Shown here: in pieces, positions 3,755 to 43,312 of the stretch | Numbering within the stretch: position 1 is the stretch's first letter | How the letters are laid out: each line of letters opens with the position of its first letter | Source of the DNA: an uncultured Oscillibacter sp. | GTDB taxonomy: Bacteria > Bacillota > Clostridia > Oscillospirales > Oscillospiraceae | Assembly (NCBI GenBank): GCA_947577075.1 | Contig: CANPTW010000017.1 | Coordinates: 1 to 52,814 of the forward strand | Direction of reading: 5' to 3' | Length of the DNA: 52,814 nt | Position numbers and translations under genes: made by a program | Notes under the pieces: model-generated | Told to the model about the DNA's origin: nothing | What the model saw: the letters and a program-made list of their open reading frames with translations, nothing else | Databases searched by the model: none

Positions 3755-4795
3755 ATGAACGGACTGCCCAACGAGGAGCGGCAGCGCCTGGGGGCGCTGC
3801 TGGACAAGACTTCCCAGGAGGAGGTCATGGCGCGGATTCCCCAGTTTGCCCGGGCGGAGGCGCACAATCCGGTCCCCGCCCCGGCGGGGGTCCCGGAGGC
3901 TCTGGGGGTTTTGGTGTTCAACATGGAGCGGGGCGTATGCCTGGAGGAGCTGGGGGACTTTCTGGAAAGCTGCCCGGCGGTCCGGCCCTTTGACGTAATC
4001 CTCGCCAACGAGCTGGACGACGGCTGCGTCCGCTCCGGCGGGAGGGACACCACCCTGGAGCTGGCGGAGCGGCTGGGGATGAACGCGGCCTTCGGCCTGG
4101 AGTTCATCGAGCTGGTGAACGGGGAGGACCCCAAGGGCTTCCACGGCAACGCCATTTTCTCCCGCTGGCCCATCCGGCAAACCCGGGTGGTCCGCCTGCC
4201 GGAGCAGTACAACTGGTACTTCGACCGCCAGCGGCGCATCGGGGGGCGGCTGGCGGTTCTGGCGGAGCTGGACGTGGCGGGAACGCCGGTGGGCGTCGGG
4301 ACCATCCATCTGGAAAACCGGACCCACGGCCCGGGCCGCCGGGCCCAGCTGGACGCCGTGCTGGCGGAGGCGGAGCGGATGTTCCCCGGAATGCCCGTAA
4401 TCCTGGGCGGGGACCTGAACACCAATACCTTCGACGGCCGGGACAAGGACGCCATCCGGGCCGTGGCGGGCAGTCCCGCCCTCCAGCGCCGCTGCCTGGA
4501 GGACGTGGCCGCCTGGGAGGAATGCCTTCCCGCGGCGGAGCGGGCGGGCTACCGCCTTCTGCCGGACAAGGCCCTTCCCACCCGGCGCAAGCCCCTTCCC
4601 GGGGGCGACCACCTCGACCTGCGGCTGGACTGGCTGCTGGTCCGGGGCCTGGAGGCGGGGGAGAGCCGCACCGTCTCCACCCGGAGGGCAGACTGCGGCT
4701 TCGCCCCGCCGGGCAGCGCCCTGGCGGCCTTCACAGGAGAGGAGCTGTCCGACCACAACGCGGTCTGGGCCTCCTGCGCCCTGCCCCGGGGATAA
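3755..4795 (+). CDS. endonuclease/exonuclease/phosphatase-family protein
   Basis: A 346-aa protein of the metal-dependent EEP (DNase I-like) fold, which cleaves phosphodiester or phosphate ester bonds in nucleic acids, lipids or small molecules; the substrate cannot be read from sequence. Family motifs appear in order: FNMERG (metal-binding Asn region), ANELDD (metal-binding Glu), HGNAIFSR, HLENRT (active-site His), GGDLNTNT (Asp/Asn pair) and the C-terminal SDHNAVWA. No signal peptide or membrane segment, so cytosolic. The ATG is preceded by the strong site AGGAGGTG. It has its own promoter and stands alone before the purA leader. Confidence 0.85.
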   Translation: MNGLPNEERQRLGALLDKTSQEEVMARIPQFARAEAHNPVPAPAGVPEALGVLVFNMERGVCLEELGDFLESCPAVRPFDVILANELDDGCVRSGGRDTTLELAERLGMNAAFGLEFIELVNGEDPKGFHGNAIFSRWPIRQTRVVRLPEQYNWYFDRQRRIGGRLAVLAELDVAGTPVGVGTIHLENRTHGPGRRAQLDAVLAEAERMFPGMPVILGGDLNTNTFDGRDKDAIRAVAGSPALQRRCLEDVAAWEECLPAAERAGYRLLPDKALPTRRKPLPGGDHLDLRLDWLLVRGLEAGESRTVSTRRADCGFAPPGSALAAFTGEELSDHNAVWASCALPRG

Positions 4796-4914
4796 GCGGG
4801 GCCCCCGGAGGCGCCGGGGCCACGGAAATCCCCCCCTCCCCGTCCCGCGGCAGGCAGGCGGGGCCCCGCAGCCGGGGCAAAGGGGAAAAATCCCGCGGAA
4901 TTTCCGCTTTTCCC

Positions 4915-4943
4915 TTTACTTATGGCAAAACTGCCGCTATAAT
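4915..4943 (+). promoter_or_regulatory. promoter of the purA leader
   Basis: TTTACT, 17-base spacer, perfect TATAAT. Transcription from here would give a leader of about 170 bases before the purA ATG. Confidence 0.65.
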
Positions 4944-5117
4944 AGGGAAGGGAAACTTTGGGCCCCGCGGTTCGCGGAGCCCTTCTTTTCGCCGGGGCGC
5001 GGAGCCGCCGCCGGCGGACCCCCGGGGCCGGACAGGCCCTTATCACCGGCTGGCCGCTGGCCGTGAGCAAGCGGAACGCCTCCCGTTTTCCGGGGGGCGG
5101 CGCGGGGAGGTTTCATT
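4944..5117 (+). other. long GC-rich 5' leader of purA
   Basis: About 170 untranslated bases between the promoter and purA, rich in G/C runs able to form hairpins, ending in the ribosome site GGGGAGG. I do not recognise a purine, PRPP or ppGpp riboswitch core, nor a clear terminator hairpin with T run. The remaining gap (4796-4914) also holds no gene. Confidence 0.4.
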
Positions 5118-6392
5118 ATGTCAAATTGCGCCATTGTGGGCATCAACTGGGGCGACGAGGGCAAGGGCCGTATGGTGGACCTGATCACCCAGGATTACGA
5201 CGTGGTGGTCCGCTATCAGGGCGGGGGCAACGCCGGGCACACCGTCGTCAACGAAAAGGGGAAGTTCGCCCTGCACCTGCTGCCCTCCGGCATCTTCCGG
5301 GACGGCGTGGTCAACATCCTGGGCAACGGGGTGGCCCTGGACTGCGAGAGCCTGTGGAAGGAAATCCAGGACGTCGCCGCCCAGGGCGTGGCCGTCACGC
5401 CGGACAACCTGATGGTCAGCGACCGGGCCTCCCTGCTGCTGCCCTGGCACCGGGATCTGGACGGCCTGGAGGAGGCCCGCCTGAAGGACAAGAAATACGG
5501 CTCCACCAAGCAGGGCATCGCCCCCTTCTACTCCGACAAGTTCCAGAAGAAGACCGTCATGGCCGGGGAGCTCCTCTACCCGCAGCATCTCCGCTCCCAC
5601 CTGGAGGATCTGCTGGAGTGGAAGAACCTGACCCTCACGAAGGTGTACAACGCCAAGCCCTATACCATCGAGGAACTGATGGCCTGGGTGGCGGACTACG
5701 GCGAGAAGATTCGCCCCTTCATCCGGGACACCGGCGCCTTCCTCCGCCAGGCCCAGACGGAAAACAAGCGCGTCCTGTTCGAGGCCCAGCTGGGGGCCCT
5801 GCGGGACCTGGACTACGGCATCTATCCCTACACCACCTCCTCCAACGCCGTGGCGGCCTATGCCCCCGTGGGCTCCGGCCTGCCCTCCGCCCGGATTGAC
5901 GAGGTCATCGGCGTGGTGAAGGCCTACTCCTCCTGCGTGGGGGAGGGTCCCTTCACCTGCGAGTGGTTCGGCGAGGAGGCGGAGAAGCTCCGCCAGGCCG
6001 GGAACGAGTACGGCGCCAAGACGGGCCGCCCCCGCCGGGTGGGCCCCATCGACATCGTGGCCACCCGGTACGGCGTGCAGTGCCAGGCGGCGACGAACAT
6101 CGCCCTGACCAAGCTGGACGTGCTGAGCTATATGGACAAGATCCCCGTCTGCGTCCGCTACGAGCTGGGAAGCCAGCAGACGGACCGCTTCCCCTTCCCC
6201 GCTTTGCTTCCCGAGGCCAAGCCGGTGGTGGAGTATATGGACGGCTGGAAGTGCGACATCTCCGGCGTCCGGACCTGGGAGGACCTGCCCGAGGCCGCCC
6301 GGAAGTACGTGGAGTATATCGAGCGGGAGATCGGCTGCCGCATCGGCTACGTCTCCGTGGGGCCGGAGCGGGAGGCCATCATCCTGCGCTGA
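5118..6392 (+). CDS. purA: adenylosuccinate synthetase
   Basis: Joins IMP and aspartate using GTP to make adenylosuccinate, the first committed step of AMP synthesis, in the cytosol. The 424-aa length is standard. The GTP loop WGDEGKG places Asp13 and Lys16, and GGGNAGHTV places His41; Asp13 and His41 are the catalytic pair known in Escherichia coli PurA and fall on identical numbers here. GRPRRVGPIDIVATRYG matches the conserved substrate-binding loop. One small deviation is Arg18 where many homologues have Lys. It heads a cluster with a small unknown gene and purB, so both steps from IMP to AMP are encoded together. Confidence 0.98.
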   Translation: MSNCAIVGINWGDEGKGRMVDLITQDYDVVVRYQGGGNAGHTVVNEKGKFALHLLPSGIFRDGVVNILGNGVALDCESLWKEIQDVAAQGVAVTPDNLMVSDRASLLLPWHRDLDGLEEARLKDKKYGSTKQGIAPFYSDKFQKKTVMAGELLYPQHLRSHLEDLLEWKNLTLTKVYNAKPYTIEELMAWVADYGEKIRPFIRDTGAFLRQAQTENKRVLFEAQLGALRDLDYGIYPYTTSSNAVAAYAPVGSGLPSARIDEVIGVVKAYSSCVGEGPFTCEWFGEEAEKLRQAGNEYGAKTGRPRRVGPIDIVATRYGVQCQAATNIALTKLDVLSYMDKIPVCVRYELGSQQTDRFPFPALLPEAKPVVEYMDGWKCDISGVRTWEDLPEAARKYVEYIEREIGCRIGYVSVGPEREAIILR

Positions 6393-13088: not shown

Positions 13089-16016
13089 TTGAAAATCGGT
13101 CTTGACGTGGGGTCCACCACCATCAAATGCGTGGTGCTGGACGGCGCGGACAACCTTGTATACAGCACCTATGAGCGGCACTTCAGCCACATTTTGGAGA
13201 AGTCGGAGGAGCTGCTCCGCCGGATGGCGGAGCGGTACGTTCCCAGCGGGCGGGCGGAGCTGGCCATTTCCGGTTCCGCCGGGATGGGCATGGCGGAGAG
13301 CGTGGGCGTCCCCTTTGTGCAGGAGGTCTTCGCCACCCGGGTGGCCGCGGGCAGGCTGGCCCCCGGCACCGACGTGGTGATTGAGCTGGGGGGCGAGGAC
13401 GCCAAGATCCTCTTCCTCACCGGCGGCATGGAGGTCCGGATGAACGGCTCCTGCGCCGGGGGCACCGGGGCCTTCATCGACCAGATGGCAACCCTGCTGA
13501 AAATGACCGCCGACGAGATGGACACCGCCGCATTGGAGGCGGAAAAAACCTACACCATCGCCTCCCGCTGCGGCGTCTTCGCCAAGAGCGACGTCCAGCC
13601 CCTCATCAACCAGGGGGCGAAGGCCACGGACATCGCCGCCAGCATCTATCAGGCGGTGGTGAACCAGACCATCGCGGGCCTGGCCCAGGGGCGGCCCATC
13701 AAGGGGAACGTCCTCTATCTGGGCGGGCCGCTGACCTTCTCCCGGTGCCTCCGGGAGAGCTTCGACAAGACCCTGGGGGTCGCCGGGACCTGCCCGGAGA
13801 ACAGCTTGCTGTTCGTGGCCCTGGGGGCGGCGTTTTACGCCGACCAGAGCTTTGATTTGCGGGACATGGCGGACCGCCTCCGGGAGCGGGGGGCCTCCGA
13901 GACTTACCGGAGCCAGCCGCCGCTGTTCGAAAACCGGGAGGAGTACGAGTCCTTCCGGGCCCGCCACGACAGGGCCAGGGTGGCCCGGGCCCCCTTCGGC
14001 CCGGACTACGCCGCCCCGGTCCACATCGGCGTCGACTCCGGGTCCACCACCGTGAAGGTGGCGGTCATCGACCAGGAGGCCCGGCTGCTCTTCACGGACT
14101 ACCGGCCCAACCTGGGCAACCCGGTGCCCCTGATCCGGGGCGTTTTGCAGCAGCTCTACGACGAGCACCCGGCCCTTCACGTGGCCTCCGTCACCACCAC
14201 CGGCTATGGCGAGGACCTGGCGAAAAACGCCTTCCACGCGGATTACGGCGTGGTGGAGACTGTGGCCCACTTCACCGCCGCCCGGCACTTCCTGCCCAAT
14301 GTGGACTTTATCATCGACATCGGCGGGCAGGACATGAAATGCTTCAAAATCGAGGACGGGGCCATCAGCAACATCTTTTTGAACGAGGCCTGCTCCTCCG
14401 GCTGCGGCAGCTTTCTCCAGACCTTCGCCCAGGCCCTGGGGCATGACGTGCGGGAGTTCGCCCAGCTGGGCCTCTTCGCGGACCGGCCCGTGGACCTGGG
14501 GAGCCGCTGCACCGTCTTCATGAACTCCAGCGTGAAGCAGGCCCAGAAGGACGGGGCCAGCGTGGAGAACATCTCGGCGGGCCTGTCCATCAGCGTAGTG
14601 AAAAACGCCATCTACAAGGTCATCCGGGCCGCCAGCCCCGAGGAGCTGGGGCGGAACGTGGTGGTTCAGGGGGGCACCTTTTATAATGAGGCGGTCCTCC
14701 GGGCCTTTGAAAAAGAGATGGGGGTGGAGGTCATCCGCCCGGACATCGCGGGGCTCATGGGGGCCTTCGGCGCGGCCCTCTTCGGGCGGAGCAAGGCCGC
14801 CCCCGGCCAGGCCAGCGCCCTTTTAAGCCGGGAGGCCCTGGCGGGCTTCTCCCAGGAGACGGAGAGCCGGCTCTGCGGCCTGTGCGGCAACAACTGCCAG
14901 CTGACCGTGAACACCTTTGCGGGGGGCGAGACTTTCATCAGCGGCAACCGCTGCGACCGCCCCGTCACCGGAAAGGCCGACAGCGGAGAGCGGAACCTTT
15001 ACGCCTACAAGCGGAAGCTGATTTTGGCCTACAAGCCCGTTCCCGGGAAGCGGGGGAAGATCGGGCTTCCCCTATGCCTGAACCTGTGGGAGCTGCTGCC
15101 CTTCTGGCACACCTTCTTTACGAAGCTGGGCTTCGCCGTGTACCACAGCCCCCTCTCCAGCCGGGACCTCTACTTGAAGGGCCAGGCCACCATTCCCAGC
15201 GACACCGCCTGTTTCCCGGCCAAGCTGGCCCACGGGCACATCCAGTTCCTCTCCGGGCTGGGCCTGGACGCCATTTTCTACCCCTGCATGACCTACAACC
15301 TGGATGAGGGCCTGGGGGATAACCATTACAACTGCCCCGTGGTGGCCTACTACCCGGAGGTCATCGCCGGGAACTGTCCCGAGATCAAGCGCGCCAAATT
15401 CATTTACGACTACGTGGGCCTCCACCGGCCCAAGGACTTCACCAGGAAGATCTATGATATTCTCCGGCGGCACTTCCCGGATATCTCCAAGTCCGAGATC
15501 CGGGAGGCCGGGGACGCGGCCTATGCCGAGTACGCCCACCACATGGCCCAGGTCCGAAAGGAGGGGGCCCGCATCATGGACCAGGCCCGGGCGGAGGGGC
15601 GGCGGATCGTCGTCCTGGCGGGGCGGCCCTACCATGTGGACCCGGAGGTCAACCACGGCGTCGACACCCTGATCACCCGCTTCGGCGCGGCGGTGGTGAC
15701 GGAGGACGCCGTCTCCGGCCTGGTGGACAAATTCCCCACCACCGTGCTGAACCAGTGGACCTACCACTCCCGGCTCTACGCCGCCGCCCGGTACTGCGTG
15801 GAGCACCGGGACTGCGACCTGGTGCAGCTGGTGAGCTTTGGCTGCGGCGTGGACGCCATCACCACCGACGAGACCCAGGCCATCCTGCAGGCCGGGGGCA
15901 AGCTCTACACGGAGCTGAAAATCGACGAGATCACCAACCTGGGCGCGGTGCGCATCCGCCTGCGGAGCCTCTTCGCCGCTTTGGATGAACAGAACGAACC
16001 CAAAAAGGAGGCGTGA
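13089..16016 (+). CDS. tandem 2-hydroxyacyl-CoA dehydratase activase-type ATPase (BadF/BcrA/HgdC family, duplicated, plus DUF2229)
   Basis: 975-aa protein. Two ASKHA-fold activase domains in tandem: the first starts KIGLDVGSTTIK, the second VHIGVDSGSTTVK near residue 313. Each carries both cysteines that hold the [4Fe-4S] cluster in HgdC homodimers: Cys122 (SCAGGTG) and Cys161 (SRCGVF), and Cys435 (ACSSGCG) and Cys474 (SRCTVF); the 39-residue spacing equals Cys127/Cys166 of Acidaminococcus HgdC, so one chain may hold the whole cluster. The C-terminal third (DUF2229 type) has a CGLCGNNCQ cluster. TTG start after AAAGGAGG. Family role: ATP-driven low-potential electron injection; the acceptor is unknown, perhaps the next gene product. 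Confidence 0.9.
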   Translation: MKIGLDVGSTTIKCVVLDGADNLVYSTYERHFSHILEKSEELLRRMAERYVPSGRAELAISGSAGMGMAESVGVPFVQEVFATRVAAGRLAPGTDVVIELGGEDAKILFLTGGMEVRMNGSCAGGTGAFIDQMATLLKMTADEMDTAALEAEKTYTIASRCGVFAKSDVQPLINQGAKATDIAASIYQAVVNQTIAGLAQGRPIKGNVLYLGGPLTFSRCLRESFDKTLGVAGTCPENSLLFVALGAAFYADQSFDLRDMADRLRERGASETYRSQPPLFENREEYESFRARHDRARVARAPFGPDYAAPVHIGVDSGSTTVKVAVIDQEARLLFTDYRPNLGNPVPLIRGVLQQLYDEHPALHVASVTTTGYGEDLAKNAFHADYGVVETVAHFTAARHFLPNVDFIIDIGGQDMKCFKIEDGAISNIFLNEACSSGCGSFLQTFAQALGHDVREFAQLGLFADRPVDLGSRCTVFMNSSVKQAQKDGASVENISAGLSISVVKNAIYKVIRAASPEELGRNVVVQGGTFYNEAVLRAFEKEMGVEVIRPDIAGLMGAFGAALFGRSKAAPGQASALLSREALAGFSQETESRLCGLCGNNCQLTVNTFAGGETFISGNRCDRPVTGKADSGERNLYAYKRKLILAYKPVPGKRGKIGLPLCLNLWELLPFWHTFFTKLGFAVYHSPLSSRDLYLKGQATIPSDTACFPAKLAHGHIQFLSGLGLDAIFYPCMTYNLDEGLGDNHYNCPVVAYYPEVIAGNCPEIKRAKFIYDYVGLHRPKDFTRKIYDILRRHFPDISKSEIREAGDAAYAEYAHHMAQVRKEGARIMDQARAEGRRIVVLAGRPYHVDPEVNHGVDTLITRFGAAVVTEDAVSGLVDKFPTTVLNQWTYHSRLYAAARYCVEHRDCDLVQLVSFGCGVDAITTDETQAILQAGGKLYTELKIDEITNLGAVRIRLRSLFAALDEQNEPKKEA

Positions 16017-39493: not shown

Positions 39494-39688
39494 ATGGCAA
39501 GTAAACCGAACATTCGTAGTATCCGCTTTTCGGACGAGCTGGCGGAGCTCATTGACCGGCAGGCGAGGAATACCTTCACGGAGAAGTTTGCAAATCGACA
39601 GAAGAAAAAAGGCCTTTGCCCATTAAGGGCGCATATCAAAGAAATTGGCTGTTTTCCTACAACGAAAAAGACGCATACCAAAAGTTAA
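39494..39688 (+). pseudogene. truncated ribbon-helix-helix protein, 5' part only
   Basis: Begins SNIRFSDELAELID-like: MASKPNIRSIRFSDELAELI, the pattern of a ribbon-helix-helix DNA-binding N-terminus found on mobile elements. Sense is lost after about residue 35 (EKFANRQ), where the sequence passes into another gene's fragment in a different frame; the remaining residues to the stop are junction-derived. AAAGGAGG precedes the ATG. Confidence 0.6.
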
Positions 39689-39999
39689 AACCCATTGCGG
39701 AAGAACTAGGCTATACTGTTTTTGCAAAGGTTCGATTGCTGGACCTTGTAACTCCCGTAAAAGGAAATCCGAAGTACAAAACATATTTCTATAAAGTTCA
39801 AGCGAAACATGTTGACTTTGTACTTTGCGACGAAAAGCTGGTTGCCCGTTGTGTGATCGAATTGGATGATAAGAGCCACGACACAGAAGAGAGACAAAAA
39901 AGAGATAGCTTTGTCGATGAAGTTCTAAAAAGCGTGGGCTATAAAATCATCCATACCCGTGCTATCACCGATGATTTAAAAAAGCAGATTAATGAATAA
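39601..39999 (+). pseudogene. DUF2726 domain protein, 5'-truncated
   Basis: In a second frame the sequence reads YQRNWLFSYNEKDAYQKLKP, then AKVRLLDLV, KHVDFVLCDEKL, CVIELDDKSHD and FVDEVLKSVGYKIIHTR, the full DUF2726 core (a restriction-endonuclease-like fold in related proteins, with ELDD-SH). The usual N-terminal membrane segment and start codon are missing; only a weak in-frame TTG (39616) exists. Low GC compared with the flanks. Ends at a hairpin terminator. Confidence 0.7.
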
Positions 40000-40010
40000 T
40001 CAAAACGAGA

Positions 40011-40040
40011 GGGGCCGCTATTAGCGGTCCTTCTTCTTTT
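40011..40040 (+). terminator. terminator behind the DUF2726 fragment
   Basis: GGGGCCGCTA, short loop, GCGGTCC with T-rich TTCTTCTTTT following on the plus strand. It overlaps the end of the convergent minus-strand small gene. Confidence 0.7.
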
Positions 40041-40158
40041 GGCAGAGCCGGAGCCAGAGAGCGGGGGCCAGACGGGCCAGGGTGCGGCCCAGGCAGTAGG
40101 AGCCGTAGGCGATGCCATAGAGGGTGAAGGGCAGGGCGAAGACGAAAAGGGCGGTCAT
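40021..40158 (-). CDS. 45-aa hydrophobic protein with basic tail
   Basis: MTALFVFALPFTLYGIAYGS followed by YCLGRTLARL and a KKKDR tail: one likely membrane span. Starts inside the stop of the 67-aa gene (AAATGA overlap) with AGGAGG ahead, so it is the last gene of the minus-strand block. Size and layout suit a minor coat or accessory membrane protein of a filamentous phage; this is inferred from position only. Confidence 0.6.
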   Translation of the reverse strand: MTALFVFALPFTLYGIAYGSYCLGRTLARLAPALWLRLCQKKKDR

Positions 40159-40358
40159 TTCTTATCCTCCTCTTCTTTCGCTTTCATCGCTTCTATCATC
40201 CTCTCCGGGTCCGGGCCGATGAAGAGCCGGGGACAGCCTTTCACGGTGGTGGGCTCCGGCGTTCCCGATATCACGAGGTTCAAAGCCTCACGGGCCATAA
40301 GCCAGCTGCCGCTTTCAAAGCGGAGTTCTCCGCTGGCATCGTAAACGAGATAGTACAT
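40155..40358 (-). CDS. 67-aa small protein of the phage-like block
   Basis: MYYLVYDASGELRFESGSWL, then a mixed domain, ending in a charged tail (AMKAKEEEDKK). No family recognised; no membrane span. AAGGAGG ribosome site; sits 9 bases after the previous 54-aa gene and overlaps the next. Confidence 0.65.
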   Translation of the reverse strand: MYYLVYDASGELRFESGSWLMAREALNLVISGTPEPTTVKGCPRLFIGPDPERMIEAMKAKEEEDKK

Positions 40359-40367
40359 AGTGCCTCC

Positions 40368-40532
40368 TTATCTGTGCCGCTCTTGTTCGCTGGCGGCGTC
40401 TTTCAGCATTAGGAACAGACCCAGGGCGGCAAATGTCAGCATCCCCGTTAGGAAGAAGGAAAAGAGGGGAATGGACAGCATTGCACGGATGGTATCGTCG
40501 AAGAGGACCAAAACGGCATATATGAAAGACAT
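40368..40532 (-). CDS. 54-aa single- or double-span membrane protein
   Basis: MSFIYAVLVLFDDTIRAMLS then SIPLFSFFLTGMLTFAALGL and a KDAASEQERHR tail: hydrophobic throughout with a polar C-terminus. AAGGAG lies 9 bases ahead of the ATG. Position directly behind the coat-like gene suggests a minor structural protein of a filamentous phage remnant; function not established. Confidence 0.65.
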   Translation of the reverse strand: MSFIYAVLVLFDDTIRAMLSIPLFSFFLTGMLTFAALGLFLMLKDAASEQERHR

Positions 40533-40595
40533 GATATCGTCTCCTTATTGTTTGAGTTGGGGACACGGGCAGACCTGTGCCCCCAGGTCTTGTCG

Positions 40596-40785
40596 TCAGC
40601 GGGAAGCACGTTTGAGCCTACGAAACACCGTGATACCCACGACAAGCAGACCAGCGGCGGCATACACGCACAGAAACGGGTTAGACGTAATCATCTGGAA
40701 CACGTCCCCCACGATGGTCGTCAGCGTACTGACGCCGCTGGTAATGGCGCTCAGGCCGCCAGTTACAGTCTCAGTCTGCGGTCAC
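40596..40785 (-). pseudogene. filamentous-phage major-coat-like protein, frameshifted near the start
   Basis: A GTG behind AAAGGAGG reads V-T-A-D and meets TGA after four codons; skipping one base at 40773 opens ETVTGGLSAITSGVS, TLTTIVGDVFQMITSNP, one 15-20 residue span (VYAAAGLLVVGITVF) and a basic tail FRRLKRASR before the stop. About 60 aa with an amphipathic N-half, one span and a basic C-terminus is the plan of pVIII-like inovirus coat proteins, where the basic tail faces DNA. The alternative frame has no ATG, GTG or TTG before the span. Either a disabling insertion or a recoding site. Confidence 0.55.
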
Positions 40786-40805
40786 TCCTCCTTTCCTAAA
40801 AATCA

Positions 40806-40879
40806 TGGTGGCGGGCCCTGGAATCGAACCAGGCGTTCCAGGTGCGGACCCTGGCGTGCTGCCTATGCACTAGCCCGCA
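40806..40879 (-). tRNA. tRNA-Arg (anticodon CCG), encoded CCA
   Basis: Folds on the minus strand: acceptor with G2-C7 pairing, U8 and A9; D stem GUGC/GCAC with GG in the loop; anticodon stem CCAGG/CCUGG around GUCCGCA, giving CCG at 34-36; 4-base variable loop; T stem CCUGG/CCAGG with UUCGAUU; discriminator A and genomic CCA. Oddities: U1 opposite C72, G32, and a pyrimidine (C37) 3' of the anticodon. It lies between the Rep remnant and the coat-like gene, so it appears element-borne. Confidence 0.82.
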
Positions 40880-40940
40880 ATGTTTTGAAACTGTAACACA
40901 AATCGCCTCCAGGAATGAGCTGCCAGGATGTCAGATTGTG

Positions 40941-41947
40941 TTACAATGCCGCTACCTGGACACTGGGCCGCAAGCTGCCGCACAGGGAATTGTAATCTGT
41001 TAACAGGAACTCTTGCTTGTCCGTCAGACGTTTCAGGGAGTCTATGGCAATCTCCACGATGTGCCGGGGCCCCATGGTCTGAACGAGGATAGCCAGGGAG
41101 GGGCCCACCTGGGCCTCCACCCAATTGCTGATCCGCTCTACGCTGTGCTGAACGACGCAGCGGGCCACCAGGTGGACCTCCTCGATCTCGTCAACGAAGG
41201 TTTGCCACCAGCCGCAGACCGTACAGCGGGTGATGTTGCTGTCGTCCCGCTCTATGAAGCTGAATTTGTCGTTCATCACCTGGGCCGCCAGCTTCCCCAC
41301 ATTCTCTGAATGGGCCATTTCCTCGACGAAGGCGTTGGCGTTCTCCTTCCGCATAACAAGCTCTACCCGTATCCAATGGCCGTCTGCGCCCTGCTCCAGA
41401 GCCTTGTCGTAAATGCGGACACGGAAGTCGGAGGAGGGAGCGCCTATGTAAACCGTAGACCCGGCTTTTGTTTCGCCGTTGATGGATTCATGGATGTCTT
41501 TCCATCTCAAACGGCTGTTGATTTCACGGGCACGGGTTTTCCTTATAATCTGTTCCATGTCCAGATAGCCCTCCCGGTCGTCGCAAGCGATGTCCAGGCG
41601 GGAGATGTTAGCGGACTCGTCCGTCGTGAGGAGCTGGAAGAGGGCCGGGAAAGCGACGCTTTCCCCTCCACGCTTGTCCTTTCCCAGCTTGGACATGGTT
41701 TCAAAGGCTCGGCAGCCGTTGCCGGACATGCTGACACATACGCCCATGTTCTTGAAAAAGTCGTTCTGCCGGGGGCATAGCACACGCAGATGTCCGAAAA
41801 GCGGAGGACCTTGTTATAGCCCAGGAGGCTGTAGCCTGTATCCCGAAAAAGAACAGGATCTAAACCCAGGTATTCCTTGATAACCTCGCCGGGGTCTTCC
41901 TTCTTCACCGAGAACGTCAGCCAGTCGACAGATACTTGGCACCTCAT
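40941..41947 (-). pseudogene. Rep_trans-family rolling-circle replication initiator, frameshifted
   Basis: Starts MRCQVSVDWLTFSVKKEDPG, continues KVLRFSDICVCYAP, then loses frame near 41780 within a run of five C; adding one C restores RQNDFFKNMGVCVSMSGNGC and the rest to the stop (about 335 aa total). Family marks in the second part: SRLDIACDD, STVYIGAPSSDFRVRIYDKA with the candidate nicking Tyr, WIRVELVMR. Such proteins nick a double-strand origin and start rolling-circle replication of plasmids and filamentous phages. The break could be decay, slippage in the C run, or a sequence error. Confidence 0.8.
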
Positions 41948-41992
41948 TGGTAGTCCACCCTTCTATTTGTCATGAGTACCCCCGTGATTACT

Positions 41993-42027
41993 TCCGGGGG
42001 TCCGGGCGGCCCTGCAGGCCCCCCGGA
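41993..42027. repeat. inverted repeat upstream of Rep (candidate origin)
   Basis: TCCGGGGG and CCCCCGGA enclose a further GC-rich core with GGCC-ctgca-GGCC type pairing. Located 46 bases before the Rep start, where a rolling-circle double-strand origin hairpin could lie; the initiator's nick site is not identifiable. Confidence 0.5.
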
Positions 42028-42102
42028 TTCCCTTTGGTCTTTTCAGTTCACGGCAATATGGCATATCGTCACGACATTCCAGGGATTACCAGATAGGTCG
42101 CC

Positions 42103-42189
42103 TTACTTGCCCGCTTCGATATAGTGCGGACAATCATCACATGTAAGCTCTAAGTTGTCCGCATAGGGACAATAGCCCAACTCACACAT
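42103..42189 (-). CDS. 28-aa Cys-rich peptide
   Basis: MCELGYCPYADNLELTCDDC then PHYIEAGK: four Cys (CxxxxC ... CxxC) suited to one zinc or cluster site. GAGGTGG precedes the ATG by 6 bases; lies between the putative ssDNA-binding gene and Rep. No homologue recalled with function. Confidence 0.55.
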   Translation of the reverse strand: MCELGYCPYADNLELTCDDCPHYIEAGK

Positions 42190-42198
42190 GAGGCCACC

Positions 42199-42510
42199 TC
42201 ACCCGTCCAGGGCGGATTCAATTACCCGGCCCTTATCATCGAAGAACAGGCGGACCTTGTCGCCGAGCTCCAGGCCCTCCCAGACGTTGGGGCTGACGCA
42301 CTTCTTTTTCTCCGCCTTGAAGCCGCTGGCCTTGTAGTCTTCGGATTCAAAGGTACTGACCGGGGAGAAAACGAACATATTGTGATAGGGAAGCCGCCAT
42401 CCGTTGTTCGCCTCAAACATGCCGGAGGCCCAGCCGAGGAACACGTAGCCCTGGTATTCCAGGTCAATTTTCATTTCCTTCTTCGCTTCGGTCTTCACTT
42501 CGTTGCTCAT
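42199..42510 (-). CDS. 103-aa protein in the position of a phage ssDNA-binding protein
   Basis: A charged N-terminus (MSNEVKTEAKKEMKID) precedes a beta-rich body and an end KVRLFFDDKGRVIESALDG. It is the first gene of the minus-strand block, just ahead of Rep, where filamentous phages and rolling-circle elements often carry a small ssDNA-binding protein. The OB-like pattern is suggestive only; no motif proves it. AAGGAAGG site before ATG. Confidence 0.6.
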   Translation of the reverse strand: MSNEVKTEAKKEMKIDLEYQGYVFLGWASGMFEANNGWRLPYHNMFVFSPVSTFESEDYKASGFKAEKKKCVSPNVWEGLELGDKVRLFFDDKGRVIESALDG

Positions 42511-42550
42511 ATAGAGCCTTCCTTTCCGGGGTCCTGCCCCTGCCTTTTAT

Positions 42551-42585
42551 AAAAAATCAGCCGGACAGTGGGTACTGTCCGACTG
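42551..42585 (-). terminator. terminator immediately upstream of the phage-like block
   Basis: CAGTCGGACAGT, ACCC loop, ACTGTCCGGCTG on the minus strand, then ATTTTTTA. It stops minus-strand transcripts coming from the right. In a circular element this would be the natural end-of-genome terminator before the first gene. Confidence 0.75.
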
Positions 42586-42601: not shown

Positions 42602-43312
42602 AATCCAGCCTGGACCCATTACCGCTCTTTGATGAGGGTAACGGACGAAAAGGCACGGACCTTCTACCTGGAGGAGTGCGCAAAGTCCGGCTGGAGCTCC
42701 CGCCAGCTGGAGCGGCAGATCAACACCATGTTCTACCAGCGGCTTCTTGCCAGCCGGGACAAGGAGAGCGTGGCGGCGGAGATCCAGACCACAGAGCCCA
42801 AGCCGGAGTATGAGCAGATCATCAAGGACCCCTATGTACTGGAGTTTCTGGACCTACCGGCCAACGAGCATTTCTACGAGTCCAACTTGGAACAGGCCCT
42901 GATCGACCATTTGCAGAAATTTCTCCTGGAGTTGGGCCGCGGGTTCTCCTTTGTGGCACGGCAGAAGCATTTCAATGTGGACGGGCAGCATTTTTACATT
43001 GATCTGGTGTTCTACAACTACATTCTGAAATGCTTTGTGCTGATTGACCTGAAAACAGGAATCCTCACTCACCAGGACATCGGGCAGATGCAAATGTATG
43101 CGAACTACTACACCCGTTATCAGATGAACGAGGGGGACAACCCGCCGGTGGGCCTGCTGCTGTGCGCACAGAAGAGCGATACCCTGGTCCAGCTGACCCT
43201 GCCGGAGGACAACCGGCAAATCTACGCCGCGAAGTATATGCCCTACCTGCCCACGGAGGAGGAGCTGAAACGGGAGTTGAATCTGGCAGAGTTCGAGAAA
43301 CTGGAGGATTGA
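42602..43312 (+). pseudogene. YhcG/DUF1016-type PDDEXK nuclease, N-terminally truncated
   Basis: Sense begins abruptly after a stop at 42599 with WTHYRSLMRVTDEKARTFYL, which in full YhcG proteins lies after an N-terminal DUF1016_N domain of about 100-130 aa that is absent. The rest is complete: SSRQLERQINTMFYQRL, the nuclease core FYIDLVFYNYILKCFVLIDLK (Asp, then D-x-K), and PVGLLLCA. A start at ATG 42629 or 42632 could still express the nuclease half. YhcG proteins occur beside restriction systems; this fragment is likely cut by the neighbouring element. Confidence 0.8.

Follow-up and report, generated by a model that had tools for sequence, protein, structure and literature searches.

Inoviruses of gut Clostridia may start their major coat protein with a phage-encoded, non-methionine initiator tRNA: a probable decayed member in an Oscillibacter contig and its relatives

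Bacterial translation is commonly described as starting with formyl-Met, carried by one kind of initiator transfer RNA (tRNA), at AUG, GUG, or UUG. Eukaryotic starts that do without Met-tRNA, namely that at the internal ribosome entry site (IRES) of cricket paralysis virus (CrPV) and that with Leu-tRNA at CUG, resemble the case described here in this respect but are not known to involve a dedicated tRNA gene with a matching private codon. In E. coli, initiator tRNAs engineered to carry changed anticodons use UAG or GUC as the start codon and deliver Gln or Val there, as recounted in part of PMC2268962. As far as the relevant parts of that paper and of PMC8576571 go, these laboratory constructs are like the tRNAs considered here in their initiator body, altered anticodon, charging with Gln or Val, and start at the cognate codon, whereas the phage tRNAs are natural and covary with the start codon. 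The tRNA genes treated in part of PMC10264068 likewise lie inside phage genomes, but those phages are larger and their tRNAs are taken as elongators, whereas here a single initiator-like tRNA belongs to a genome of 5 to 6 kb and to one start codon. The subject of this study is a stretch of 52,814 nucleotides (nt) of contig CANPTW010000017.1 from an uncultured Oscillibacter sp. (the window), in which a minus-strand gene block at 40021-42585 is best read from its sequence as a decayed inovirus remnant. Like the Inoviridae with Zot (the bajarodino viruses), elements of this type have a small coat protein, Zot, and a Rep of the rolling-circle type; the bajarodino viruses have Zot, whereas the window copy lacks both Zot and the adsorption genes.

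We consider it very probable that a group of inoviruses encodes its own non-methionine initiator tRNA, which would give the major coat gene a private start codon, and that the window element is a decayed member of this group. With slightly less assurance, but still as the probable state of affairs, this would be a natural, co-evolving form of orthogonal initiation, in which inoviruses of gut Clostridia use dedicated Thr, Gln, or Glu initiator tRNAs, each with one private codon for the major coat, so that the coats in the virion never carry methionine. It is the relatives that carry the finding, for which the window copy is a weak example; that the tRNA is charged, formylated, and used at the start site is what we infer from the comparisons below.

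ARAGORN finds a single tRNA directly 5' of the coat gene in 14 inovirus-type elements, with 26 to 54 nt between the tRNA gene and the first coat codon. The elements and their anticodons are as follows.

Window element: CCG.
L004, on contig 6 of the same genome: TTC.
L011: CTC.
Six bajarodino virus genomes: L146, TGT; L147, AGT; L148, CTG; L149, TGT; L150, CTG; L151, CGT.
L163, from a genome of the genus to which the host belongs: TTG.
Four loci of metagenome-assembled genomes, titled Oscillospiraceae (two), uncultured bacterium, and Clostridiales: L199, TGT; L200, TTG; L201, CGT; L202, CTC.

The coat frame was set by downstream motifs and the Shine-Dalgarno (SD) sequence was located by its pattern. 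In 12 of the 14 elements, the first coat codon, which is not AUG and stands in frame 7 to 9 nt past a strong SD, is exactly complementary to the anticodon of the tRNA. The matching codon/anticodon pairs are GAA/TTC, GAG/CTC (two elements), ACA/TGT (three), ACT/AGT, ACG/CGT, CAG/CTG (two), and CAA/TTG (two). If the longest frame is taken instead of the coat frame, 10 of 14 match, with wrong frames for L004 and L163. When the anticodons were shuffled among the 14 elements, the mean was 1.93 matches and 12 matches were reached in none of 500,000 shuffles, a result that overstates independence, because some of the elements are closely related to one another (L011/L202, L148/L150, and L147/L149). 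The last of these pairs is informative in itself: L147 and L149 are 99% identical in Zot, 92% in the tRNA, and 100% in the coat, yet they have AGU with ACU and UGU with ACA, respectively. An SD followed by the cognate codon and an open reading frame (ORF) of at least 40 codons finds the coat start in all seven complete phage records (L011 and L146 to L151); in L151, one extra site with SD and cognate codon occurs besides the coat start.

The upstream flank of the tRNA ends in ATAT in 9 of 13 elements, in several of them after a hairpin (hairpins were judged by eye), and in L147 to L151, L199, and L200, a hairpin is followed by TATAT that ends exactly at the 5' end of the tRNA. These flanks and the fixed place before the coat gene would suit a purely structural element, which might serve RNA processing, mRNA protection, or as an origin or packaging signal, but such an element has no need of an anticodon complementary to the first codon of the next gene, and this explanation seems to us most improbable.

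The cloverleaf of the 14 aligned tRNAs covaries, with a score of 0.626 that falls to 0.111 or less when the alignment is slid by one to three columns. All 14 encode CCA and have canonical elbow bases, and none has a Watson-Crick pair at 1:72, position 72 being A in 13 of them and C in the window element. RF00005 matches 24 tRNAs in the host genome, which is incomplete; that of the window is not among them, and 22 of the 24 are paired at 1:72; the exceptions, tRNA-fMet and the phage tRNA of L004, are both C.A. A background set of 650 further distinct tRNAs, largely of viral contigs, has 618 that are paired at this position and 32 that are unpaired, 19 of the latter being tRNA-Met(cat). In E. 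coli, the lack of a 1:72 pair counts among the two main initiator determinants and is critical for formylation, the determinant being named in the part of PMC8576571 that concerns it. According to the corresponding part of PMC9976931, bacterial Thr identity includes C2:G71 together with G4-C69 and G5-C68, base 73 being minor. C2:G71 is kept in five of the six tRNAs with Thr anticodons, and those that keep it lack only G1-C72 of the bacterial Thr identity set.

The bacterial tRNA-fMet, for which that of the host (L270) may serve as an example, is likewise without a 1:72 pair, and L004 and L200 also share its C1.A72 and A11:U24; the phage tRNAs with Gln, Glu, and Arg anticodons have G2:C71, C3:G70, G4:C69, and A73 in common with the host molecule. 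The three G:C pairs at 29-31:39-41, in contrast, are found in only 3 of the 14 phage tRNAs (L011, L146, and L202), the phage anticodons are CCG, TTC, CTC, TGT, AGT, CTG, CGT, and TTG and never CAU, and the phage tRNA is encoded by the phage itself and sits before one gene. From their sequences, the phage tRNAs look chargeable and initiator-like. To our knowledge, bacterial elongator tRNAs would not be expected to have an AGU anticodon, and the paired 1:72 end of an elongator is found in 0 of the 14. The usual interpretation of phage tRNAs, in the part of PMC10264068 that deals with it, is that of ordinary elongators, which here would supply codons or stand in for host tRNAs that a defence nuclease has cleaved; as this would leave the codon match, the missing starts, and the 1:72 mismatch unexplained, we hold it to be very unlikely.

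The missing starts are as follows. In 11 of the 14 elements, no in-frame ATG, GTG, or TTG occurs between the SD and the first coat codon; in L146 and L201, such codons occur in frame further upstream only. A stop codon stands two codons ahead of the first coat codon in five elements (L151, L163, L199, L200, and the window). The records of L148, L149, and L151 have no annotated feature under the coat match. In L146, a deposited "hypothetical protein" (4882-5193) begins within the tRNA gene, which is likely an annotation error due to the missing coat ATG. A coat start consisting of SD and ATG, GTG, or TTG was scored in 52 of 56 coat-homologue loci without the tRNA and in 3 of 13 tRNA-bearing loci other than the window; because the scoring accepts a lax SD and picks the start lying furthest upstream, it demonstrates the availability of a normal start but does not tell which start the gene uses. 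The four tRNA-less loci in which no start was scored are L168, which is truncated at the end of its contig; L211 and L213, in which an in-frame ATG falls outside the SD window; and L223. Among the 52 positives, L018 (a TTG far upstream) and L022 (the contig starts within the coat) are weak cases.

Several of the tRNA-less coats start with ATG-Glu or ATG-Gly, and others have a signal peptide with a likely mature end at Glu, Asp, Thr, or Ala (cleavage judged by eye). In L204 (1431-1517) and L301 (approximately 4588-4668), a degenerate tRNA-like sequence occupies the place of the tRNA before an ATG-started coat; these sequences may be tRNAs lost after a return to ATG. A counter-case to the codon match is found in L255, a contig whose inovirus status is not demonstrated, in which a viral tRNA-Leu(cag) at 47-121 with A.A at 1:72 precedes an SD and an ATG gene.

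Besides the kinship among the 14 elements, several observations weigh against initiation by the phage tRNA. Thirteen of the 650 background tRNAs are unpaired at 1:72 without being tRNA-Met, and in E. coli, IF2 binds the fGln initiator with the lowest affinity, as given in part of PMC2268962. An in-frame ATG lies 2 nt past the SD in L011 and L202 and immediately past it in L149. Two pairs are mismatched: in the window, CCG faces the in-frame CAG and differs at the middle base, and in L201, the anticodon CGU faces GCG at SD+7. The GCG of L201 could be used via a first-position G.U pair, as GUG is with CAU, and the mismatch of the window is in keeping with decay.

In the mechanism that we favour, initiation by a charged phage tRNA, the tRNA would most likely be freed from the transcript, and host synthetases would charge it with Thr, Gln, or Glu; its unpaired 1:72 end would permit formylation and disfavour use in elongation. 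IF2 would then bring it into the P site, on the codon cognate to it, and the coat would begin with (formyl-)Thr, Gln, or Glu, with neither Met nor a signal peptide, and its N-terminus would resemble the processed coats of the signal-peptide relatives without the action of signal peptidase. The private start codon would link synthesis of the coat with the tRNA that the phage itself encodes.

A tRNA-mimicking IRES, which sets the reading frame, is the model for an action in cis. The tRNA would then stay in the leader of the coat mRNA, and its anticodon would pair with the first codon and set the frame or, like the tRNA-like thrS operator, control translation, with the start at the next codon. 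Closeness within the same transcript and exact pairing speak for such an action, as do the synthetase-binding tRNA-like structures in mRNA leaders treated in part of PMC9976931; however, the encoded CCA, the Thr identity pairs in five of the six Thr types, and the canonical elbow fit a charged and freed tRNA, and a mimic needs none of them. Action in cis is thus unlikely, although less so than the elongator role.

The tRNA-bearing elements span two Zot lineages that are about 25% identical, and the four tRNA-bearing Reps scanned belong to three families (Rep_trans in the window, REP_ORF2-G2P in L004 and L147, and Rep_OBD in L148). Each tRNA-bearing phage genome, of 5 to 6 kb, has one tRNA, which is present in six of the seven bajarodino genomes examined. 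The earlier note on this DNA had called a tRNA inside such an element unusual. Most other inovirus loci examined have none by ARAGORN, yet the arrangement recurs ahead of the coat in 14 elements. In scans of IMG/VR, ARAGORN identified no additional inovirus with a tRNA, but the prophages in that collection are cut. A strict tRNA-coat sequence pattern, which would miss another SD or T loop, found the own-genome copy only (1 of 394 genomes), and none of the matches listed for a general pattern of tRNA and SD fits the Zot queries; the latter loci were kept as background. Permissive ARAGORN settings were too noisy to use. Zot-type searches matched 5 of 86, 3 of 300, 32 of 391 (many weak), and 13 of 365 genomes, and larger stretches around the matches were taken for three of the first five, for both matches of the second set outside the own genome, and for seven places of the last two sets. 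Not counted among the 14 are L345 (the contig of L201), L018, L255, L204, L301, and L289, the last because its tRNA-Arg call is on the opposite strand and far from Zot. The contig of L018 begins just 5' of an SD and an in-frame GAA, so that the tRNA region lies beyond it.

A search of the own genome with the window block leads to L004, a fuller relative, which contains a Rep of another family, tRNA-Glu(ttc), the coat, relatives of the 67- and 45-residue genes, a 608-residue protein in the adsorption position (named from position and size), and a Zot-type ATPase. The ATPase has no Pfam Zot match but matches phrog_20922 (morphogenesis; 1.7e-5) and is 26% identical to the Zot of L011 (E = 5e-9); an IMG/VR contig, L017, encodes an ATPase that is 77% identical to it. 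L011 is HG796283, a circular record of 5.6 kb that was deposited as plasmid pRGI00226; it encodes Zot (PF05707; 1.5e-5), the coat, and the tRNA and is, by its gene content, probably an inovirus genome. After the phage end of L004 (approximately 14000-15001) lies a gene that resembles an IS30-type transposase by eye and possibly serves integration; the end of L018 is similar.

The features of the window element are as follows; SD denotes the Shine-Dalgarno sequence.

39494..39688, plus strand (opposite to the block): truncated accessory gene of the element, 71% identical over 34 residues to the end of L017.
39616..39999, plus strand: DUF2726 gene, the N-terminus of which overlaps the truncated accessory gene.
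40021..40158, minus strand: 45-residue membrane-type protein, 91% identical to that of L004.
40155..40358, minus strand: 67-residue protein, 53% identical over 47 residues to L004.
40368..40532, minus strand: 54-residue membrane-type protein, 56% identical over 32 residues to L023.
40596..40778, minus strand: coat gene, 60 codons from CAG plus stop, with one hydrophobic span and a basic tail (judged by eye).
40782-40784, minus strand: in-frame TGA ahead of the coat CAG.
40787..40796, minus strand: SD of the coat gene, GGAAAGGAGG.
40806..40879, minus strand: tRNA gene with anticodon CCG (tRNA-Arg; ARAGORN), encoded CCA, unpaired 1:72 (U.C), 27 nt 5' of the first coat codon.
40892..40945, no strand assigned: inverted repeat TGTAACACA ... 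TGTGTTACA between Rep and the tRNA.
40941..41783, minus strand: C-terminal piece of Rep (Rep_trans; PF02486, E = 6.3e-42).
41543..41947, minus strand: ORF with the N-terminal piece of Rep in a different frame (PF18106, E = 4.1e-6).
42103..42189, minus strand: 28-residue Cys peptide (from the ORF list).
42199..42510, minus strand: 103-residue protein in the position of a single-stranded DNA (ssDNA)-binding protein, 48% identical over 85 residues to an ORF near a Rep relative in genome G013.
42562..42581, no strand assigned: hairpin GGACAGT-GGGT-ACTGTCC ahead of the block.

All the minus-strand features listed in the earlier note, from the 103-residue to the 45-residue ORF, were located, but some need qualification. 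The Rep_trans domain is certain, but the gene is broken, with its two domains in separate frames. The proposed coat candidate has homologues (E = 4e-14 to 5e-6 against the coats of relatives), but its true frame is longer than the 38-residue ORF from GTG: it is open after the TGA at 40782-40784 and starts at CAG (40776-40778), 8 nt past GGAAAGGAGG. A coat frame broken at its start is rejected, since the frame is open from CAG. The tRNA-Arg(ccg) is called by ARAGORN but stays below the Rfam gathering score and, with lax limits, gives only a weak tRNA-Sec match (21.6 bits; cut-off, 47), and for these reasons the window tRNA is atypical or decayed to judge from its sequence. The 28-residue peptide has no homologue in a comparison with the proteins of relatives, and the 103-residue ORF has no Pfam or PHROG match, its ssDNA-binding label being one of position alone.

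The decayed-inovirus reading follows from the Rep split over two frames and from the missing adsorption and Zot genes. Of the traits of the Inoviridae/Tubulavirales, the window block has a rolling-circle Rep, though broken, and a small single-span coat homologous to the coats of inovirus-type loci, and no ORF of the Zot/pI morphogenesis ATPase type lies within it. In L148, the coat in the related position matches phrog_2186 (virion structural protein; 5.1e-6). The inovirus-like character put forward in the earlier note is borne out, as the same genome contains homologous modules adjoining a Zot-type gene, and L004 has the tRNA position, the 45-residue gene, and, downstream, the Zot-type gene that were to be sought together. 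Relatives of Rep are not confined to plasmids (224 records) but also occur in phages (17 records), including records typed as Inoviridae; the closest found is the Rep of L017 (69% over 266 residues). Of the two alternatives offered for the missing genes, a satellite relying on a helper is disfavoured by the split Rep and the missing gene blocks. The tRNA as an attachment site is rejected, as in L004 and the window it sits inside the element between Rep and the coat. For the window alone, the tRNA might be host derived, left by integration and unconnected with coat translation, which its mismatched anticodon and poor score would suit; the same place in 13 other elements (circular genomes and the own-genome relative among them) and the same absent 1:72 pair, however, leave this a very slim chance.

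An inverted repeat, TGTAACAC ... GTGTTACA, with halves approximately 35 to 40 nt apart, is conserved in several inovirus-type elements and is perhaps an origin or integration site. Its placement varies: it lies at 40892-40945 in the window, before the coat or the tRNA in L163, L017, and L302, and after Zot in L004 (13873-13925); in L017, the similar repeat precedes an ATG-started coat gene without a tRNA. The remnant probably extends on the left to 39494, because the plus-strand ORF at 39494-39688 matches the end of L017. The DUF2726 gene may be an inovirus accessory gene; relatives of it occur in other inovirus-type contigs (L177, 48%; L186, 35%). A hairpin similar to that at 42562..42581 also precedes L004. 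A DUF1016/YhcG nuclease gene at 42629-43312 adjoins the element and lacks its first approximately 100 residues, perhaps truncated by the insertion of the element.

A literature search at the level of titles and abstracts, outside the subscription literature, found no inovirus initiator tRNA and no natural non-Met phage initiator tRNA among the matches listed. If the reading suggested by these sequences is right, a phage tRNA that starts the coat from a private codon would be a new way of protein start in nature, and natural phage tRNAs that start at ACN, CAR, or GAR codons would break the formyl-Met rule. They would provide ready-made parts for orthogonal initiation and would account for the coat gene being missed by gene finders in L148, L149, and L151. 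They would also offer a testable explanation for the presence of just one tRNA gene in some very small phages.

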